DNA from: Eubacterium sulci ATCC 35585
Lineage (GTDB): Bacteria; Bacillota; Clostridia; Peptostreptococcales; Anaerovoracaceae
Length of the DNA stretch: 64,000 nt
Direction: 5' to 3'
Assembly (NCBI GenBank): GCA_001189495.1
Contig: CP012068.1
Span: 992,001-1,056,000, forward strand
The first letter of the stretch is position 1, and every line of letters starts with the position of its first letter. The position numbers and the translations under genes were made by a program. This document shows, piece after piece, positions 22,826-47,118 of the stretch. Under the pieces are notes generated by a model. It was not told the origin of the DNA. It searched no databases and saw only the letters and a program-made list of their open reading frames with translations.

Positions 22826-22906
22826 CTACTTTCTCTTATATCCTGTAATCATTGCAGCAGCAAAACATCCAACTGCAGCCCATGCGAAAAATCTGTGATA
22901 CTTCAT
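22826..22906 (-). CDS. Small (26-residue) single-helix membrane peptide
   Basis: ATG 22906 is preceded by a strong AGGAGG at ideal spacing and opens a 26-codon frame ending in TAG at 22826. The peptide starts MKYHRFFAW, has a hydrophobic middle rich in alanine (VGCFAAAMI) and ends with basic residues (GYKRK). This looks like a genuine small membrane protein. It lies 16 bases upstream of the zinc-ribbon membrane gene, so they may be co-expressed. Confidence 0.6.
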   Translation of the reverse strand: MKYHRFFAWAAVGCFAAAMITGYKRK

Positions 22907-34829: not shown

Positions 34830-36968
34830 CTATTTCTGTTTCTTTCTTCTATATATCATCCCAGCTACGATTCCAAGTCCAGCAAGTCCTGCTGCTGCAA
34901 GGTATAGCGGAAGGTTAGAAGTATCACCTGTGTTAGGCTTATTTGGTTTTACACTATCTGTATACTTTAGTGTGAAAGTAATATTGTTGTAATCAGTTGG
35001 CGCAATTGCATCTGCTCCCTCTGGTAACTGCTTTCCATTCCATTTAAAATCAAATCTTACAGCCTTGCCATTTGAGTTCATGATAGCCTTACCAGAAAAT
35101 GCTCCACTAACTTCACCCTTTACTGTATAGTTAGTATTTGGTTTTGCAGCTGAAGTAAATACAGCACCATCAAGCTTAACTTTTAGATTATCATCAACTG
35201 ACTTTATATCACGTGACAGATCATCGTAGTTAACATAAGTCTTTGCCAGTTTGATTGTTACAGTAACCTTATTTCCGGTTTTCTGTACATTTGTAATCTT
35301 GAATACACCCTTATCTCCCTCTAGAGTAGCTCTTGGTGTTGATGAAGTAAATTCCATCTCTGCAGGCAGTTCAAGACTTGATACAAATGTTGTGTCGATA
35401 TCGCTAAGCGTTACTTGATTTCCTAAAGGATTATTGTAGAAATTTTCTATAGCTGTCATTTTATCCTTAATAGGCTTTACATCAAGAAGTCCTGTAAACT
35501 CATGTTTTACATTCTTTTTGCTCACATAAACTGCATCGTGTTCTGTTTCGTTTCCGATGAGAATATCTCCCATCAAATCTTCTTCTGACTGCATTACAAC
35601 TTCTGCTGGAAGTGAATACTTAACTGTATATGTAATCTGATCCAAATCGTTTGGTGCAATAGCATCAGCTCCATTTGCTGACTGCTTTGCAGTCCATTTA
35701 TAATCAAAGTTAATTGTCTTATTAGCGGCATTTGTAGCCTTAGCTTTAAATGTTCCGCCTAAATAACCTGTCATAGTATAATTGGTATTAGGTGTAGCAG
35801 AATCAGAGAACTTAATTCCCTTAACTGTAACAGTTAGATTGTCATCCACACTGTTAATCGCTGTTGAAAGCATGTTATATGTAGTATAGCTTGCAGAATT
35901 CTTGAGTCCTAGCTTTATTTTGATCTTATCGTTATTTACATTCTGAGACTTTATTTCAAATATTCCGTTAGCACCTGTGAGTTCAACTGTAGGATTAGCA
36001 TCTTTAAACTCTAGTCCATTTGGAAGAGTTAACGAAGCTTCAAACTCTGTATCAAGATTCTCAATCGTTACCCCTGCTGCATATGCTGTCTGGAATGTAG
36101 TCTCAAGACGTCTCATCTCATCTTTAACAGGCTTAATATTAAGTACGCCTGTCATATCAAAAACTGCATCCTTAGATGTTGTCATTACACTGTCATGCTC
36201 TGTATCGGTACCTATTGTAAGGTCACCCTCTAGAAGACTATTTGTACCGTGATCTTCAGGAAAGCTTGGTGAATCTGGAAGTCCACCTGTAAATGGTACA
36301 TTTGCAATGTCTGTTACATATGTCTGAAGACCAAACTTAAGCGTAGCTGCAATCCCATTTGGATATGTTGAAAAATCGCCATTTGCTGTTATTTTCTCAC
36401 TTTCAAATTTTTCAGCTTCTGCCTTGCTATTTGCAGTAATTGAATATGGTATCTCAAGTTTTACTGTATGAGCATCTGGGTCAGCCTTATCCGCATTATA
36501 GAAATTTAAGATTCCTGCCCAGTTAACGTCCTTTAGATGTATCTTAAAGTTAACTGTTCTTCCATTAACAGTTGAATCAATGCGATTTCCGTCTATCATT
36601 GATGCAGTGTTTGTCTTTGTGATAGTACCAATATCGACATTCTCTGGAAAAGTCACATTATATTCTATGTATGCAATCTGATTCTTTCCATCCTTACCAT
36701 GAGGATAAAGTCCAGCATTAGCAGCAGTTTGCATCTCGCTTTCAAGTGCCCCTAGCACTCTAGTCATAGGTACATTTATTGTTACCTTTCCATTGTACTT
36801 AGCTTTATTTGCGGCTACATTTTCTACCGTTCCTTCTGATCTTACATACTGAGCTATAGGTAGTACTGTTGCGGCACTAGCTGGTATAGCCGTTACTAAC
36901 TGGCTTACAATCATAACAAATGCAATTGCAAGCACAAAGAGTTTTTTACCATGCGTTTCTGTTCTCAT
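34830..36968 (-). CDS. Cell-wall surface protein with three repeated modules and PNTGD sorting signal
   Basis: The 712-residue protein has a signal peptide (about residues 1-33, ending ASA). Residues about 240-465 and 466-670 are two copies of one module (each with GD-IGxxTEHD, an INSVDDNL/IKSVDDNL stretch, a PNTNYT stretch and an ending like ADAIAP); the first 240 residues hold a more diverged copy. The C-terminus has KPNTGD at about residue 676, a hydrophobic helix and the basic tail RRKKQK, a sortase sorting signal of the (x)PxTG type. I do not recognise the module; it looks like an all-beta adhesin stalk. ATG 36968 has GGAGG; the frame runs to 37004. Confidence 0.85.
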   Translation of the reverse strand: MRTETHGKKLFVLAIAFVMIVSQLVTAIPASAATVLPIAQYVRSEGTVENVAANKAKYNGKVTINVPMTRVLGALESEMQTAANAGLYPHGKDGKNQIAYIEYNVTFPENVDIGTITKTNTASMIDGNRIDSTVNGRTVNFKIHLKDVNWAGILNFYNADKADPDAHTVKLEIPYSITANSKAEAEKFESEKITANGDFSTYPNGIAATLKFGLQTYVTDIANVPFTGGLPDSPSFPEDHGTNSLLEGDLTIGTDTEHDSVMTTSKDAVFDMTGVLNIKPVKDEMRRLETTFQTAYAAGVTIENLDTEFEASLTLPNGLEFKDANPTVELTGANGIFEIKSQNVNNDKIKIKLGLKNSASYTTYNMLSTAINSVDDNLTVTVKGIKFSDSATPNTNYTMTGYLGGTFKAKATNAANKTINFDYKWTAKQSANGADAIAPNDLDQITYTVKYSLPAEVVMQSEEDLMGDILIGNETEHDAVYVSKKNVKHEFTGLLDVKPIKDKMTAIENFYNNPLGNQVTLSDIDTTFVSSLELPAEMEFTSSTPRATLEGDKGVFKITNVQKTGNKVTVTIKLAKTYVNYDDLSRDIKSVDDNLKVKLDGAVFTSAAKPNTNYTVKGEVSGAFSGKAIMNSNGKAVRFDFKWNGKQLPEGADAIAPTDYNNITFTLKYTDSVKPNKPNTGDTSNLPLYLAAAGLAGLGIVAGMIYRRKKQK

Positions 36969-37377
36969 AATAATCCTCCATTTAATTTTTAGTTTTATCT
37001 TCATCCATAAAAAAATGCTACATATATCTATATTAAACAGTGTAGCAAAATGTATTTCCGGCTAATTTAAACGATATAGCGACTCATTTACTTCTAAAAT
37101 CGAGCCAATATATTTATACACTTTGTTAAAATAAATAAACATATTATATTGCATAAAATTAGTCAGAATATCAATTTCCATTTTAATATTGACAGACTAA
37201 TTATACCATATAAAAAAAATAATCAAAACATTCCTCTTACATAAAACTACTTATAATTCACATAGATTTAATTGCATTTAGACTATTATTGTTATGAAAT
37301 TGTTTAAAACTCACAGTTAGTGGATACGAACTATATGTTTTTTAAAAAATTGTATTGAATCGCACATAGGAGGAAAA
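36969..37377. other. Divergent intergenic region between two surface-protein genes
   Basis: 409 bases with no gene. It contains an element with arms GCTAC (37017-37021) and GTAGC (37042-37046), partly matching the one at 2292-2329. Many AT-rich hexamers could act as promoters, including a TTGACA on the plus strand near 37190, but no pair is convincing. AGGAGG for the plus-strand gene is at 37369-37374. Confidence 0.4.
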
Positions 37378-38564
37378 ATGAAAAATCCACGCTAAAAAAC
37401 AAAATATTATCTTTTGCATTGTCCACTGCACTTGCAACAACTCTTGTAATTGGAGGAACTACTCTTGCCTTTGCAGATGAGTCACACACTATAAACAATG
37501 CATCATATCAGTCACTTCAAAGTTATTACAATGCTAACAAGACTGCAATGGATAGCTCTAATGAGTGGCAGTTTGGAAAAAGACAGATTAATGTCGGAAC
37601 ATCAAATAATTCAGATCCCGAATTCGAAATCCCATCTAATATAACATCGGTAAAGGGATATGGTGATGAAACAGAAGGAACAGTTTTAAATCCATATTAC
37701 TATAACAACAATTCCATTACTATAAAAACTGCTAATAACTCAAGTACAACTCTTGATAATCTTTATTTCAACAAGGATAATAATGGCTATACAGTAAAGC
37801 TTAAAACAGGTGATAACTCAAATACAACTGTAAAAAATTCCGTTTTTGAAGGCCCTATTACAATAAGCTCTGGATCAACTCTTAATCTTACAAACAGCGA
37901 AATATATGCAGCAATGACAAACAATGGTGGAAACCTATTTATAGACAATAGTAAATTTGGTAATCTTAATTCAGGAGCAAAGCTAGAGATTAGCACTAAC
38001 AGACTCGATAATGGTACAGTAGGAACAGCATATAGTTCTACAATTAATTTCAACAAGTCTCTTGCAACAAACAATGCATCAAGCATTCAGCTAGACCCTA
38101 CACAGGCAGTTGTGAATACAGATATAGCTGGCCTTACTGCAAGACTTATCGATAATGGCAACGGTAGTTATAGTGTAGTTGTTGAAGGCACGCCAACTGC
38201 TGAGGTTACAAACGGAATTGTAAATGTTGCTCTTGTATATGGAAATGCAGCAAATGGCGGATTCAGTTTTAATATTCCATACTATGTCAATATTGCAGCT
38301 GCACAGCCTAGTCCTGTGACTCCTGTAAATCCAGTAGTAAATCCAACTAATCCTGTAGTGAATCCAAGCAACCCAGCATCTCCATCAAATAATGCTGCTT
38401 CACCTTCAACTACAAATATATCATCACAGTCAATTAAAACATCTGCTCCAAATACTGGTGATTCAAATAATATGCTAGTAGCTATTTCTGTAGTTATTAT
38501 GTCGGGACTTGCTATGGCAACATTAATTTATTCAAGAAGACGCACATCAAACTTAAACAAGTAG
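37378..38564 (+). CDS. Cell-wall surface protein with a one-base frameshift after the start codon
   Basis: AGGAGG (37369-37374) precedes ATG 37378, but this ATG reads only five codons before TAA. The body of the gene is in another frame and lacks any start near the binding site. One extra A in the five-A run 37381-37385 would restore a normal signal peptide (MKKSTLKN..., then LATTLVIGGTTLAFA). The frame from TTG 37419 to 38564 encodes a Ser/Thr/Asn-rich right-handed-helix-like domain, a Pro-rich wall-spanning segment (VTPVNPVVNPTNPV), APNTGD at about residue 358, a hydrophobic helix and a basic tail. It may be phase-variable, a recent pseudogene, or a sequencing error. Confidence 0.75.
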
Positions 38565-38576
38565 ACATGTATATCA

Positions 38577-38605
38577 AAAAGGCCTTGCATAATGCAAGGT
38601 CTTTT
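38577..38605. terminator. Bidirectional terminator between the surface protein and UDG genes
   Basis: Stem 38577-38589 with 38593-38605 around a core CCTTGCA/TGCAAGG, loop of three, flanked by A's and T's. The two adjacent genes converge on it. Confidence 0.85.
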
Positions 38606-38608
38606 AAT

Positions 38609-39184
38609 CTATTTCAAGATATTCTTAACTGTTTTTTGTAGCACTGGAACAACATTTTCTATAAACCACGGATTCTTTGCCTGCCATCTGAAGTTCAATG
38701 GACTTGGATGAACAATTGGAAAATATCTAGGCAGATATTCGTCGAAACATCTGACAGTTTCTGTAAGATTTTTTTTCATTTGTCCTTTTAAATAATAATC
38801 CATAGAGTACTTTCCTATCAAGATAGTCAGCTCAATATTTTTTAACTCATTAAGAATTGACTCATGATATTCATTTGCGATAAATTTTCTTGGAGGTAAA
38901 TCACCTGTTTTACCCTTTCCTGGATAATAAAAATCCATTGGCAGTATTGCAATTTTATCTGAGTAAAATGTATCCCTATCTATTCCCATCCAAGAAATAA
39001 GAGTATCACCCGACTTATCATTAAATGGGATAAGTGATTCCTCAACTTTCTTTCCAGGTGCTTGTCCTATAATTAAAACTTTTGCTTTACTGTTCACTTG
39101 AAGTATAGGTGGAATATTTCTCTTAGTATATTCGTAATTTCTACTATCATTTTCAATTTGACTAATTATATCATTTAGTGACAT
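38609..39184 (-). CDS. Uracil-DNA glycosylase superfamily protein
   Basis: The 191-residue protein has UDG-fold motifs: the VLIIGQAPGKK loop (about residues 36-46, the family 4/5-type GxAPG water-activating loop) and HPSPLNFRW, the HPSP leucine-loop motif (about residue 158). Between them is ILIGKYSMDYYL. It probably removes uracil or a related damaged base from DNA. It lacks the four cysteines of iron-sulfur UDGs in family 4, so its exact class is open. GGAGG precedes ATG 39184. Confidence 0.85.
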   Translation of the reverse strand: MSLNDIISQIENDSRNYEYTKRNIPPILQVNSKAKVLIIGQAPGKKVEESLIPFNDKSGDTLISWMGIDRDTFYSDKIAILPMDFYYPGKGKTGDLPPRKFIANEYHESILNELKNIELTILIGKYSMDYYLKGQMKKNLTETVRCFDEYLPRYFPIVHPSPLNFRWQAKNPWFIENVVPVLQKTVKNILK

Positions 39185-40290: not shown

Positions 40291-43200
40291 TTATTCCTCT
40301 TCCTCTTCTTTTTTCTTCTTAAGAGCTAGAAGTGTTAGAGCTGCTCCAGACATTGCTGTAAATCCTGCATATCCAAGTAGATTTGAATCATCACCTGTGT
40401 TAGGTCCTCTTCCTCTTGATCCATTAGTACCACCATTGTTTGCTGGTGGAGCAACTGCAGGTTTTGAATTAGCATCCTTAGGATTTGATCCCTTTGCTAT
40501 CTCTTCAACATCTGTAACTCCATCGTTATCATCATCTGGATCTGTTACATCAGGATCTCCATCTCCATCTGTATCTCTCTGGACAGTGATTTCGATAGTC
40601 TTTGTAACCTTTGATCCATCAGGATTTGTTACTACAACTGGGATCTCGAATGTTCTAGTTTCCTCGTTTGGACCCCAGTCAGTTACATTAGGTGTTCCGC
40701 TTACTGTCTTTGTAGTTGGGTCATAAGTTACTCCATTTGGTAGCTTAGTCTCATCTACTGTTACAGTAGCATTATTGTTTCCAGGTGTTATTACAACATT
40801 TGTTACTGGCTTTCCATCTACAACAGTCTGTGTTGGATTTGAGATTGTTGTAGGTGCGATTGGAGTAATTACAGCTGCTGGAATTGAGTTAGCATCCTTA
40901 GGATTTGATCCCTTAGCTGCTTCTTCTACATCTGTGTATCCATCATTATCATCATCTGGGTCTGTTACATCAGGGATTCCATCTCCATCTGTATCTCTCT
41001 GGACAGTGATTTCGATAGTCTTTGTAACTTTTGATCCATCTGGATTTGTAACTACTACAGGAATCTCGAACTTTCTAGTTTCCTCATTTGGACCCCAGTT
41101 TGTTACGTCAGGTGTTCCACTGATGGTAAATGTTCCTGGGTTATATGTAACTCCATTTGGAAGCTTGGTTGTATCAACTGTTACAGTAGAATCGATATTT
41201 CCAGTTCCAATTAGGATTGGTGTTATTGGATTCTCATCGATTACAGTCTGATTCTTGTTTGAAATAGTTACAGGCTCTACAGGAACGATTATAGCTGCTG
41301 GTCTTGAGTTAGCATTCTTAGGATCTGAGCCCTTTGCAATTTCTTCAGCATCTGTATATCCATCTCCATCATCATCTGTATCTGTTACATCAGGTGTTCC
41401 ATCTCTATCAGTATCTCTCTGGACAGTGATTTCAACAGTCTTTGTAACCTTTGATCCATCTGGGTTTGTTACTACTACTGGTACTTCAAATGTTTTAGTC
41501 TCTTCGTTTGGACCCCAGTTTGTTACAGCTGGTGTTCCGCTAATTGTCTTTGAAGTTGGGTCATATGTAACTCCGTTAGGAAGCTTAGATGTATCCACTG
41601 TTACTGTAGCGTTGCTGTTTCCTGGCGTGATTACAATATTTGTAACTGGATTTCCTTCAACAACAGTCTGTGTTGGGTTTGAAATTGTAGTAGGTGCAAC
41701 TGGTGTAATTACAGCTGCTGGTCTTGAATTAGCATTCTTAGGATCTGAGCCCTTTGCAATTTCTTCAGCATCTGTATATCCATCTCCATCATCATCTGTA
41801 TCTGTTACATCAGGTGTTCCATCTCTATCAGTATCTCTCTGAACAGTGATTTCAACTGTCTTTGTAACCTTTGATCCATCTGGATTTGTTACTACTACTG
41901 GTACTTCAAATGTTTTTGTCTCTTCGTTTGGACCCCAGTTAGTTACAGCTGGTGTACCGCTAATAGTCTTTGAAGTTGGGTCATATGTAACTCCATTTGG
42001 TAGCTTAGATGTATCAACAGTTACAGTAGCGTTGCTGTTACCTGGTGTAATCACTACGTTTGAGATTGGATTTCCTTCAACGATAGTCTGTGTTGGATTT
42101 GACACTGTCGTTGGGGCAACTGGTGTAATTACAGCTGCTGGTCTTGAGTTAGCATTCTTAGGATCTGAACCCTTTGCAATTTCCTCAGCGTCTGTGTATC
42201 CATCGCCATCATCATCTGTATCTGTTACATCTGGTGTTCCATCTCTATCAGTATCTCTCTGAACAGTGATTTCAACTGTCTTTGTAACCTTTGATCCATC
42301 TGGGTTTGTTACTACTACTGGTACTTCAAATGTTTTAGTCTCTTCGTTTGGACCCCAGTTAGTTACAGCTGGTGTACCGCTAATTGTCTTTGTTGTTGGG
42401 TCATATGTAACTCCATTTGGTAGCTTAGATGTATCAACTGTTACTGTAGCATTGCTGTTACCTGGTGTAATTACAACATTTGTAACTGGATTTCCTTCAA
42501 CAATAGTCTGAGTTGGGTTTGAAATTGTTGTTGGGGCAACTGGTGTAATTACAGCTGCTGGTCTTGAGTTAGCATTCTTAGGATCTGAACCCTTTGCAAC
42601 TTCTTCAGCATCTGTGTATCCATCTCCATCATCATCTGTATCTGTTACATCAGGTATTCCATCTCTATCAGTATCTCTCTGGACAGTGATTTCAACTGTC
42701 TTTGTGACCTTTGATCCATCTGGATTTGTTACTACTACTGGTACTTCAAATGTTTTTGTCTCTTCGTTCGGACCCCAGTTGCTTACTACTGGTGTTCCGC
42801 TAATAGTCTTTGAAGTTGGGTCATATGTAACTCCGTTTGGTAGCTTAGATGTATCCACTGTTACTGTAGCATTGCTGTTACCTGGTGTTATTACAACATT
42901 TGTAACTGGATTTCCTTCAACAATAGTCTGAGTTGGGTTTGAAATTGTTGTTGGGGCAACTGGTGTAATTACAGCTGCTGGTCTTGAGTTAGCATTCTTA
43001 GGATCTGAGCCCTTTGCAATTTCTTCAGCATCTGTATATCCATCGCCATCATCATCTGTATCTGTTACATCAGGTGTTCCATCTCTATCAGTATCTCTCT
43101 GGACAGTGATTTCAACAGTCTTTGTTACCTTTGATCCATCTGGGTTTGTTACTACTACTGGTACTTCAAATGTTTTTGTCTCTTCGTTTGGACCCCAGTT

Positions 43201-46200
43201 AGTTACAGCTGGTGTACCGCTAATTGTCTTTGAAGTTGGGTCATATGTAACTCCGTTTGGAAGCTTAGATGTATCAACTGTTACAGTAGCGTTGCTGTTA
43301 CCAGGTGTAATTACTACGTTTGAGATTGGATTTCCTTCAACGATTGTCTGTGTTGGGTTTGATACTGTTGTTGGTGCAACTGGTGTAATTACAGCTGCTG
43401 GTCTTGAGTTAGCATTCTTAGGATCTGAACCCTTTGCAACTTCTTCAGCATCTGTGTATCCATCTCCATCATCATCTGTATCTGTTACATCAGGTATTCC
43501 ATCTCTATCAGTATCTCTCTGGACAGTGATTTCAACTGTCTTTGTGACCTTTGATCCATCTGGATTTGTTACTACTACTGGTACTTCAAATGTTTTAGTC
43601 TCTTCGTTTGGACCCCAGTTTGTTACTGCTGGTGTTCCGCTAATAGTCTTTGAAGTTGGGTCATATGTAACTCCATTTGGTAGCTTAGATGTATCCACTG
43701 TTACTGTAGCATTGCTGTTACCTGGTGTAATCACTACGTTTGAGATTGGATTTCCTTCAACGATTGTCTGTGTTGGATTTGATACTGTTGTTGGAAGAAC
43801 AGGTGTAATTACAGCTGCAGGTCTTGAATTTGCATTCTTAGGATTTGAGCCCTTTGCAATTTCTTCAGCATCTGTATATCCATCTCCATCATCATCTGTA
43901 TCTGTTACATCAGGTGTTCCATCTCTATCAGTATCTCTCTGAACAGTAATCTTAAATGTCTTTGTTGTAGTTCTTCCAGTAGCATCCTTAGCTTCGACAG
44001 TTACTGTAAACTCTCTTGTTTCCTCATTTGAACCCCAGTCATTTACAGCTGGTGTTCCATTAATCTTTCCATTGCTATAAGTTACACCTGTCGGAAGATC
44101 CTTAACTGTTACAGTTGCACTAGGTGTATCTGTTGTTACTGCAATTTCAGTAATAGGATTGCCCTCTACCACAGTCTGATCTGCAATAGGATTAATTCCT
44201 ATAGAAGGAATTGAGTTAGCATCCTTAGGATCTGAGCCCTTTGCAGTTTCCTCTGCATCTGTATATCCATCTCCATCATCATCTGTATCTGTTACATCAG
44301 GATTTCCGTCTCTATCAGTATCTCTTTGAACAATGATTTCAATGACCTTATTAACTTTGGAACCGTTAGGATTTTTAGCCTCTACTGGGATCTCAAACTT
44401 TCTAGATTCCTCATTAGGTGCCCAGTTAGTTACTCTTGGTGTTCCATCTATAGTATATGCACTAGAATTAAAACTTACTCCTGCTGGAAGGTATATTGTA
44501 CCAACTGTAAGCTCTGAGTCTATGTTTCCTGGTGAAATCATGATTTGTGAAATAGGATTTCCTTCTACAACAGTCTGACTTTGATTGTAGATATCAAGTG
44601 GATCAACATATCCAATTATAGTCGCAGGAATTGAACCTGAGTTCTTAGGATCTGAACCCTTTGTTGTTTCCTCAGCATCTGTGTAACCATCTCCATCATC
44701 ATCTGTATCTGTTATATCAGGTGTTCCATCTCTATCAGTGTCTCTCTGTACGGTAATCTTAAATGTCTTAGTTGTTGTATTACCTGTAGGATCCTTAGCC
44801 TCAACTGTTACTGTAATATCTCTTGTTTCTTCATTTGGACCCCAGTTATTTACAGCAGGTGTTCCGCTGATCTTTCCATTGCTATATGTAACTCCATTTG
44901 GAAGACCTGAAACAGTTACTGTAGCTGTTGGATCATCTGTTGTTACAGTAATTTCAGAAATTGCATTACCCTCAACTACTGTCTGATCGCCAATTGCATT
45001 GATTTCAGGAGCTTTAATATCTTTCCATACTGCATATACTTCTTTCGCATCAGTTATGTTTGTTAGGATATTTGCATCAGCTTCTGTTGCATTAGCAGAC
45101 GCTGCCCAACCCATAAACTGATATCCATCTCTTGTAGGTTCTTCTGGCTGTGTTGCAGTACCCGCCACTGCGTTAACTATCTTATCAGTGTTTGTCCCAT
45201 CAGCCCACTTACCACCATTGGTATCAAAAGTAACCTTGGTTGCGCCTACGTTAACCTTGGTACTTGAAACTTTTGGATTCTTACCATCTGGAGAATATGC
45301 AACAAGAATTACTTTATCCCCATCCTGGAATGTTCCTGCTGGAATATTTACAGTAAAATTACCATCTGTCAAATCAGAAAATGGTATAGTGGTCTGTGCT
45401 TTGACTGGTTGCGTTGTATAATCAGTATCATCAGCAATATACTTATATGCTTTTACAATTACATTGCCAGCGTTTGGATTTGTTGCGTTTATTTTCTTTG
45501 TTGTATCTGCAGGGTTATCATATATTGTTTTAGGTACTGTTCCCTGTATTACCTCTGCTTGATTCGATTCAATTTCTGTTGTAGTTACATTTGGCTTTGC
45601 AACTAGATATGACTTTGGATTTAGGATGTCTGTCTTATCTGTTAGATATTCCTGTGCATCAGGAACTCCGTCACCATCTGTATCAACATTAAACTTATCT
45701 GAGTCAATTTCATCCTCTAGGAAGTCATATAGACCGTCCTTATCAGTATCTAGTACCTCTAGGAATGCATTTGAATATGTGTTCTGAACAATCTTGTTAG
45801 GCTTTCCACCGTCTGGCTTTCTGATTCCCTTAAAGGCACTTGTAGAGTCAACAAAGTCAGCTGTGAGCCATGACTCAAAGTTAAGCTGCTGATTATTATT
45901 AGTGATATATTCATTAAGAGCCTTTGCAAATTCCTGATTAGAAACATTGCTCTTAAGCTTGTATTCAATAGTATAAGATCTTCTCTGACCTAGGGCTCCA
46001 TAGAAAACCTGTGAGTCTAGAGTGTTTCTTACCTGAGTAACTTTATCCCAATCTCCGCCTACTATGCTAAGCGATGGAGTATCCTTAGTTGAAATAACAC
46101 CATTTCCGTTAGGATCAACTACAAGCTTAATTGGATTAGATGCTGTTATATTTCCTGTAGGTGTTGATACGCCAAGTCTAACGTTATCAGTATCAATATA

Positions 46201-47118
46201 CTTTAGAAGTTCTTTAGGAATAACTTCGTTTATATATAGAACCCATCCAGAGTTTGCCTGAAGGAAGTTCTGGTCAGGTTTAAATGATACAGTTGACTTG
46301 ATAAGCTTGTTCTTAGCATCATAACTTACTGCCTTGCCAGTATTTCCACCTGAAAAGTTTCCGTCCTTTGACTGGGTTCCATCATTAGTAAGTAGATTCA
46401 ACCCTGTACCTAGGTAGTACTCGTTTCCGTTGCTAGGATTACTTGGAAGTGTTGGCACATTAGTATTGTTCTTTAGGATAAATCCATTGTCATATCCTGC
46501 CTTATCTGCCTTACCATCTCCTCTTACCCAAACAGTTGTAAAGTCAATTCTCTTTGATGCCATGCCTAGACTATCAAGAGTAGCACCATTCTTAAGCTTA
46601 ATTACAATATCACTATTTGTAACAACTCCAATTAATCCTGAATGAAGAGTTTGGTTATTAATAGGAACCTTCCATAGCGCTCCATTAGCTTCCTTCTCAA
46701 ACTGAACGCCGTTCACTGTTATTGATTCTATCTGTGTATAGAATTCATCATCAAAAAAATTAAGTAGATATCTTCCATTATATGGGCCTTTATTAGTATC
46801 ACCCCAGCTGTGTGCAAGCTTTGCCCACTTTGTTACTGTTAGATGTATTCCATTGCTATCTTCTTTTGTGTAATCTGTTCTTGCATAATCCAAGACACCA
46901 TCAGTTTCTCCACTAATAGTGTAGTTAGTTTCATTAATAAGTGATCTAGGCTGACCACCATCTGCATTAGCCGTAATTGGAGTTAAAAACATCATAAAGC
47001 CTAGCACACATGATACTAGCCCTACAGATAGCTTTCTCGTTCCATAACGTGGCTTCTTCTCTTCGCCTTTTCGTTTCTTTTTCTCAATTACCTGTCTAAA
47101 AATCTCAAAACGATCCAT
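40291..47118 (-). CDS. Giant (2275-residue) YSIRK-type cell-wall adhesin with eleven 140-residue repeats
   Basis: The N-terminus has a YSIRK-like signal peptide (RYGTRKLSVGLVSCVLGF, about residues 24-41), which in cocci directs secretion at the septum. Residues 54-450 form a unique region. About 461-500 carry the first DxDxDG calcium-type repeats. About 625-705 hold an InlB/Listeria-Bacteroides-type repeat (VTFDTNGGKW...GYQFMGW). About 706-2226 hold eleven repeats, each an Ig-like 'putative-Ig' domain (SNPTQTIVEGNP...ISGTP...WGPNEET) plus a thrombospondin type-3-like Asp-rich loop (DTDRDGTPDVTDTDDDGDG). GPNTGDD, a helix and a basic/acidic tail end it. AGGAGG precedes ATG 47118. Confidence 0.95.
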   Translation of the reverse strand: MDRFEIFRQVIEKKKRKGEEKKPRYGTRKLSVGLVSCVLGFMMFLTPITANADGGQPRSLINETNYTISGETDGVLDYARTDYTKEDSNGIHLTVTKWAKLAHSWGDTNKGPYNGRYLLNFFDDEFYTQIESITVNGVQFEKEANGALWKVPINNQTLHSGLIGVVTNSDIVIKLKNGATLDSLGMASKRIDFTTVWVRGDGKADKAGYDNGFILKNNTNVPTLPSNPSNGNEYYLGTGLNLLTNDGTQSKDGNFSGGNTGKAVSYDAKNKLIKSTVSFKPDQNFLQANSGWVLYINEVIPKELLKYIDTDNVRLGVSTPTGNITASNPIKLVVDPNGNGVISTKDTPSLSIVGGDWDKVTQVRNTLDSQVFYGALGQRRSYTIEYKLKSNVSNQEFAKALNEYITNNNQQLNFESWLTADFVDSTSAFKGIRKPDGGKPNKIVQNTYSNAFLEVLDTDKDGLYDFLEDEIDSDKFNVDTDGDGVPDAQEYLTDKTDILNPKSYLVAKPNVTTTEIESNQAEVIQGTVPKTIYDNPADTTKKINATNPNAGNVIVKAYKYIADDTDYTTQPVKAQTTIPFSDLTDGNFTVNIPAGTFQDGDKVILVAYSPDGKNPKVSSTKVNVGATKVTFDTNGGKWADGTNTDKIVNAVAGTATQPEEPTRDGYQFMGWAASANATEADANILTNITDAKEVYAVWKDIKAPEINAIGDQTVVEGNAISEITVTTDDPTATVTVSGLPNGVTYSNGKISGTPAVNNWGPNEETRDITVTVEAKDPTGNTTTKTFKITVQRDTDRDGTPDITDTDDDGDGYTDAEETTKGSDPKNSGSIPATIIGYVDPLDIYNQSQTVVEGNPISQIMISPGNIDSELTVGTIYLPAGVSFNSSAYTIDGTPRVTNWAPNEESRKFEIPVEAKNPNGSKVNKVIEIIVQRDTDRDGNPDVTDTDDDGDGYTDAEETAKGSDPKDANSIPSIGINPIADQTVVEGNPITEIAVTTDTPSATVTVKDLPTGVTYSNGKINGTPAVNDWGSNEETREFTVTVEAKDATGRTTTKTFKITVQRDTDRDGTPDVTDTDDDGDGYTDAEEIAKGSNPKNANSRPAAVITPVLPTTVSNPTQTIVEGNPISNVVITPGNSNATVTVDTSKLPNGVTYDPTSKTISGTPAVTNWGPNEETKTFEVPVVVTNPDGSKVTKTVEITVQRDTDRDGIPDVTDTDDDGDGYTDAEEVAKGSDPKNANSRPAAVITPVAPTTVSNPTQTIVEGNPISNVVITPGNSNATVTVDTSKLPNGVTYDPTSKTISGTPAVTNWGPNEETKTFEVPVVVTNPDGSKVTKTVEITVQRDTDRDGTPDVTDTDDDGDGYTDAEEIAKGSDPKNANSRPAAVITPVAPTTISNPTQTIVEGNPVTNVVITPGNSNATVTVDTSKLPNGVTYDPTSKTISGTPVVSNWGPNEETKTFEVPVVVTNPDGSKVTKTVEITVQRDTDRDGIPDVTDTDDDGDGYTDAEEVAKGSDPKNANSRPAAVITPVAPTTISNPTQTIVEGNPVTNVVITPGNSNATVTVDTSKLPNGVTYDPTTKTISGTPAVTNWGPNEETKTFEVPVVVTNPDGSKVTKTVEITVQRDTDRDGTPDVTDTDDDGDGYTDAEEIAKGSDPKNANSRPAAVITPVAPTTVSNPTQTIVEGNPISNVVITPGNSNATVTVDTSKLPNGVTYDPTSKTISGTPAVTNWGPNEETKTFEVPVVVTNPDGSKVTKTVEITVQRDTDRDGTPDVTDTDDDGDGYTDAEEIAKGSDPKNANSRPAAVITPVAPTTISNPTQTVVEGNPVTNIVITPGNSNATVTVDTSKLPNGVTYDPTSKTISGTPAVTNWGPNEETKTFEVPVVVTNPDGSKVTKTVEITVQRDTDRDGTPDVTDTDDDGDGYTDAEEIAKGSDPKNANSRPAAIIVPVEPVTISNKNQTVIDENPITPILIGTGNIDSTVTVDTTKLPNGVTYNPGTFTISGTPDVTNWGPNEETRKFEIPVVVTNPDGSKVTKTIEITVQRDTDGDGIPDVTDPDDDNDGYTDVEEAAKGSNPKDANSIPAAVITPIAPTTISNPTQTVVDGKPVTNVVITPGNNNATVTVDETKLPNGVTYDPTTKTVSGTPNVTDWGPNEETRTFEIPVVVTNPDGSKVTKTIEITVQRDTDGDGDPDVTDPDDDNDGVTDVEEIAKGSNPKDANSKPAVAPPANNGGTNGSRGRGPNTGDDSNLLGYAGFTAMSGAALTLLALKKKKEEEEE
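40440..45000 (-). repeat. Tandem repeat array with a 420-base period inside the giant adhesin gene
   Basis: Eleven coding repeats. From about 40560 to 43920 the conserved QRDTDRDG block recurs every 420 bases exactly; the two or three repeats at the N-terminal end (about 43950-45000) are slightly shorter or more diverged. Repeats 5 to 9 (about 41700-43800) are nearly identical at the DNA level, which indicates recent duplication or gene conversion, and the array may vary in copy number between strains. Confidence 0.92.

Follow-up and report, generated by a model that had tools for sequence, protein, structure and literature searches.

The locus

The window that was analysed is a stretch of 64,000 nucleotides, positions 992001-1056000 of CP012068.1, the single contig (1,739,380 bases) of Eubacterium sulci ATCC 35585; positions given below are those of the window unless they are marked as genome positions. 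E. sulci is a species of the mouth. Between a divergent and a convergent neighbour lies a gene for a surface protein, with the following features at and around it.

34830-37004, minus strand: divergent neighbour, a PNTGD surface protein gene (the closest relative, G005, has its counterpart in the same position, 65% identical)
37359-38564, plus strand: the surface protein gene as an open frame between two stops, closed by TAA 38562-38564 (translation, codon bias, homologue)
37368-37373, plus strand: Shine-Dalgarno sequence AGGAGG, then four A before the ATG (read directly)
37373-37386, plus strand: 7-base unit GAAAAAT in two tandem copies across the ATG (sequence inspection)
37378-37395, plus strand: start codon ATG 37378-37380 and the five-codon frame MKNPR, with stop TAA 37393-37395 (read directly)
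37381-37385, plus strand: five-A run AAAAA, where start frame and gene frame diverge by one base (read directly)
37383-37475, plus strand: signal peptide KSTLKNKILSFALSTALATTLVIGGTTLAFA (gene-frame translation, ends set by eye)
37482-38309, plus strand: predicted beta-helix-like part, then Ig/cadherin-like part (AlphaFold model and VIA-align)
38445-38564, plus strand: sorting signal APNTGD, membrane stretch and RRR tail (translation, TIGR01167)
38577-38605, plus strand: terminator-like stem-loop, a 13-pair stem with a T tail
38609-39184, minus strand: convergent neighbour of 191 aa, a candidate uracil-DNA-glycosylase-like gene by eye (83% identical in G005)

The gene frame and its product

The gene frame is open from just after a TGA at 37356 and continues for some 390 codons without a second stop. 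It is a coding gene, as is evident from a genome-like codon bias, a low third-position GC (0.41/0.44/0.22 by codon position) and a 30% identical homologue. Its N-terminus reads KSTLKNKILSFALSTALATTLVIGGTTLAFADE..., a normal-looking signal peptide, and its C-terminus joins an LPXTG-like motif, PNTGD, to a hydrophobic membrane stretch and the basic tail RRR; the translation of the shifted frame thus bears out both the signal peptide and the sorting signal that an earlier note on this DNA had described. The C-terminus scores 16.4 bits with TIGR01167 (cut-off 15.9), and the protein is not among the matches of Pfam PF00746. On the leader the signal-anchor model TIGR02184 gives a weak 18.5 bits, below its cut-off of 25. 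Two sortase genes are present in the genome. Judged from sequence, this is an otherwise complete, lineage-restricted gene for a predicted sortase-anchored surface protein.

An AlphaFold model (mean pLDDT 77), made from an alignment of two sequences, consists of short beta-helix-like strands followed by an Ig-like part. In VIA-align comparisons residues 1-198 of the model resemble the phage tailspike 6c72 (Z 11.9, rmsd 2.8, 155 aligned) and residues 165-275 resemble modules of SraP/GspB (Z about 8), and this second resemblance may be one of common arrangement only. A Foldseek search of the PDB with the model returned no match at E 0.001 or better, the best E in a PDB sequence search was 0.78, and a search of 36900-38800 with Rfam at gathering scores found no RNA family.

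The start region

The ATG at 37378 stands four nucleotides behind its AGGAGG, and the same spacing occurs in 10 of the 129 AGGAGG-led open reading frames of at least 60 codons in a sample of 854,000 bases (854 kb, 49% of the genome), in which genes were predicted by codon bias. Read directly, this ATG opens only the five codons MKNPR, and the gene body lies one base off it at the A run, so that the signal peptide is not in frame with the start codon; both points had been made in the earlier note, and both hold. The tandem pair of GAAAAAT that spans the ATG is absent from the output of Tandem Repeats Finder.

The TTG at 37419 is the sole ATG, GTG or TTG in the gene frame as far as the 30th codon of the coding signal. 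It lies 23 bases 3' of the stop of the five-codon frame, and a search for a Shine-Dalgarno match to it found none. A start there would cost the leader its lysine-rich part, leaving a remainder that is hydrophobic. In a pattern search of the 854 kb, nine of ten genes with NTGD-type sorting signals have in-frame Shine-Dalgarno starts and signal-peptide-like leaders, the tenth being the present gene. Taken together with the TTG's want of a Shine-Dalgarno match and the loss of leader that it would entail, this makes ATG 37378 very probably the true start, with a frame at odds with that of the gene body.

The offset between the start codon and the gene body is more than a chance arrangement. Among the 171 AGGAGG-ATG sites in the 854 kb, 129 open frames of at least 60 codons, 7 open frames of 30-59 codons and 35 open fewer than 30, and by their translations only one of these 35, that of the present gene, begins with an ATG followed by five A. 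Of the other short frames led by AGGAGG, two on the plus strand, at genome positions 284246 and 386688, encode similar peptides of the form NPQRYxNGD and are possible small peptide genes. Within the window, at about 22826-22906 on the minus strand (genome about 1014906 downwards), a 26-residue frame encodes a small one-helix membrane peptide directly 5' of another gene.

Relatives and distribution

In the closest relative (G005) both neighbours are kept, and the distance between them is less than 100 bases as against 1.6 kb here, which means that the surface protein gene is absent from that genome. The gene is, from such sequence comparisons, evidently accessory. Elsewhere in the window, at 40291-47118 on the minus strand, lies a gene for a YSIRK-type surface protein of 2275 aa that contains He_PIG and bacterial TSP3 repeats; it too is without a counterpart at that place in G005.

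The sole homologue found is in Mogibacterium timidum ATCC 33093 (G253; NZ_JALU01000016.1), at 30% identity and E 1.2e-30. The module was found in two of 349 family genomes with the own genome included (one of the 348 others) and in one of 398 phylum genomes, that one being the own. The protein as query matched nothing in the contigs of named genomes, a query made of the two-sequence alignment matched M. timidum only, and a plasmid search gave no match. Two of the 61 relatives searched, G001 and G007, were rejected as homologues, their match being confined to the C-terminal sorting-signal region. No strain of the same species was found among the 61 relatives, the 349 family genomes or the 398 phylum genomes, the own genome being counted each time. 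The M. timidum protein shares the beta-helix/Ig-like module and ends in a GTGD sorting signal, and it alone has an FMN_bind-like part (21.3 bits, below the cut-off of 22) and a Flg_new repeat. Unlike the present gene, its gene starts in frame and is without a five-A run after the ATG, so the break is not conserved in the single homologue.

Frame breaks elsewhere in the genome

The same half of the genome was searched for comparable breaks in two passes. The first, over 454 kb, gave 102 same-strand frame changes and 346 genes; three of the 102 frame changes were without a close Shine-Dalgarno start and were read as ordinary overlaps (two of them were opened), and five of the 346 genes were without such a start. 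The second, over the full 854 kb, took in 708 genes (40 listed as without a good start) and 362 pairs of same-strand neighbours (24 listed), the entries being judged by eye and four of them opened. With transposase-like genes set aside, at least two of the 708 predicted genes have a start out of frame with the body, the present gene and a sirtuin gene described below. Two is a lower bound, since entries that start later, or at an in-frame ATG without a Shine-Dalgarno match, were accepted as ordinary. No mid-gene frame break was recognised outside transposase-like genes among the 362 pairs (24 listed), with a detector whose positive controls were two transposase-like cases only, the entries 667958, a transposase (rve), and 486438, a candidate judged transposase-like by look. 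Such breaks are scarce in this half of the genome.

Runs of exactly five A or T, for their part, are abundant. There are 1585 of them in the 708 genes, 104 starting within the first 30 nt, and of all A/T runs of five or more bases 170 of 2135 start within the first 30 nt of genes. The five-A run at 37381-37385 is accordingly no special tract, such runs being common in these genes. Runs of eight A stand right after the ATG of two other genes, both in frame, one of them a surface protein gene. At genome positions 659485-666640 on the plus strand there are three tandem PNTGD surface protein genes with leaders and tails alike, and the first of the three begins with an ATG followed by eight A, in frame. 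Phase variation is more plausible for that gene than for the one considered here.

The other broken gene of the same kind is on the minus strand and is taken here to be of the SirTM type, the name given to it in this analysis.

Genome about 1081375-1082338, minus strand: SirTM-type sirtuin gene with an offset between the frames of its start codon and its body

It matches the sirtuin 5a3a at E 9e-52 and lies directly 3' of a macrodomain gene (Macro, PF01661). Its start frame and body frame separate next to a run of five A, no more than about eight codons from the ATG. A homologue in a sister genome (G008) is 77% identical and has an in-frame start in the same overlapping arrangement. The gene occurs in four of 13 genomes of the genus, the own included, and not in G005; three other genomes of the genus carry it, G002 among them, and the copy in G001 has a stop inside the match.

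The cause of the offset

Four causes had been offered in the earlier note: sequence error, a new null mutation, ON/OFF slippage and transcriptional slippage. The first two fit best, and the other two fare poorly because the run of five A falls short of the 7-nt and 8-A limits discussed below. The likely meaning of the offset is mundane. We put at about even the chance that it is a sequence error, a one-base indel in the five-A homopolymer of the deposited assembly. Such an error would set start codon and body at odds by one base, and the living strain would then probably make the protein normally, an assembly indel error being the likeliest cause. Were the base count real, translation from the strong start would end after five codons and the protein would not be displayed.

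Everything about the gene but its frame looks intact, from the Shine-Dalgarno sequence and signal peptide through the roughly 390 codons with their codon bias to the sorting signal and terminator, and the nine other NTGD genes are in frame, including one whose ATG is directly followed by eight A. The break was observed in one genome only. In this it resembles the singletons of the GeneTack study, each confined to one gene in one genome with no homologue cluster that has the same break, and the authors' discussion holds singleton frame breaks in non-orphan genes to be likely indel mutations or sequencing errors (PMC3711429). The method as described there scores pairs of overlapping coding stretches, and a five-codon upstream frame is probably below its reach. 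The break in the SirTM-type gene, of the same kind and beside five A, also points to error, its 77% identical relative being in frame. The papers listed in a literature search did not reveal how CP012068.1 was sequenced; in the one Pseudomonas long-read assembly described in PMC12007338, deletion errors most often followed four to five identical bases, most of all A and T. Two such sites in 854 kb would be a plausible residual error rate, and we infer an error rather than a mutation.

Against this, uniform errors should fall mostly mid-gene, yet no mid-gene break was recognised among the listed pairs that were judged by eye, transposase-like genes set aside, and both breaks are at gene 5' ends. 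The present gene was preselected and the 5' census was focused on starts, which leaves the second break as the only one that could count as independent; the chance of its falling at a 5' end is about 0.08, which is not strong. Both broken genes, moreover, are accessory, a fact as compatible with real loss as with error, and the G001 copy of the SirTM-type gene has a stop as well. A recent, real one-base indel in the type strain, leaving a dispensable surface protein with a null allele that was perhaps fixed in laboratory culture, is accordingly to be considered, and we regard it as possible if rather unlikely. The gene looks dispensable, being absent from G005 and having a homologue of its module in only one of the other 348 genomes of the family; the SirTM-type gene is accessory too; and in the account of Listeria inlA such alleles are real and recurrent (PMC2831843). 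A null allele would, however, have to be recent, because the frame holds no second lesion, and the half of the genome examined has few broken genes, two recognised among 708.

It is improbable that the gene is phase-variable through slipped-strand mispairing, at the five A or between the two 7-base units, and that a clone in the OFF state was sequenced. A surface protein broken just after its start recalls inlA, where out-of-frame A6 and in-frame A7 alleles coexist and A6 changes to A7 at about 5.5e-7, and A/T tracts of 5-8 bases lie nearer gene 5' ends in the pooled genomes treated in the same report (PMC2831843). The switch would need a shorter run than that of inlA, however, and the five A (like the two copies of a 7-base unit) are not the hypermutable repeat of 7 nt or more that the GeneTack study states as its criterion for phase variation (PMC3711429). 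Runs of this length are, as noted, 1585 in number, the eight-A runs after the ATG of two other genes are in frame, and no second length variant was seen. On/off switching by a tract of five to six A, or by the 7-base pair that contains the start codon, is improbable too. Least probable of all is that the protein is made from the sequence as deposited, whether by transcriptional slippage on the run, by ribosomal slippage or by re-initiation at TTG 37419. The frame is intact for it, and the TTG follows the five-codon stop by 23 bases with a hydrophobic remainder of leader behind it, but that codon lacks a Shine-Dalgarno match and forgoes the lysine-rich part. Nor, by eye, does the run match the heptamer at which known -1 ribosomal slippage occurs. 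In the reporter assays of PMC6260861, slippage by E. coli RNA polymerase was undetectable on fewer than 8 A, a limit measured in E. coli only and not reached by five A, and in a large share of genomes selection against A/T runs is described as evident once they reach nine bases (PMC1088944).

Implications and comparison with Listeria inlA

What the offset would mean depends on the base count. If the count is an error, the preferred reading, the complete genome of an oral species may lack one of its surface proteins or annotate it wrongly. If it is real, the strain would be a natural knock-out or, less likely, would carry a switch of the inlA kind in a tract of unusually few A. Were such a switch true, reversible switching by 5' homopolymers would reach down to run lengths that are usually left uncounted, and short runs, common as they are, would act as low-rate switches in a commensal of the mouth, the SirTM-type gene being a second example.

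By analogy, the closest precedent is inlA of Listeria monocytogenes (Orsi et al. 2010), whose product carries the sorting motif LPXTG; no relation of the present protein to InlA was found. For inlA, tracts of six and of seven A are each found among strains and a reversion rate was measured, in contrast to the five A in one genome here. Each of the two genes is one for a sortase-anchored surface protein. In each, as PMC2831843 describes for inlA, the protein is set one base out of frame in an A tract near its start, such that translation from the start codon yields a peptide of a few residues.
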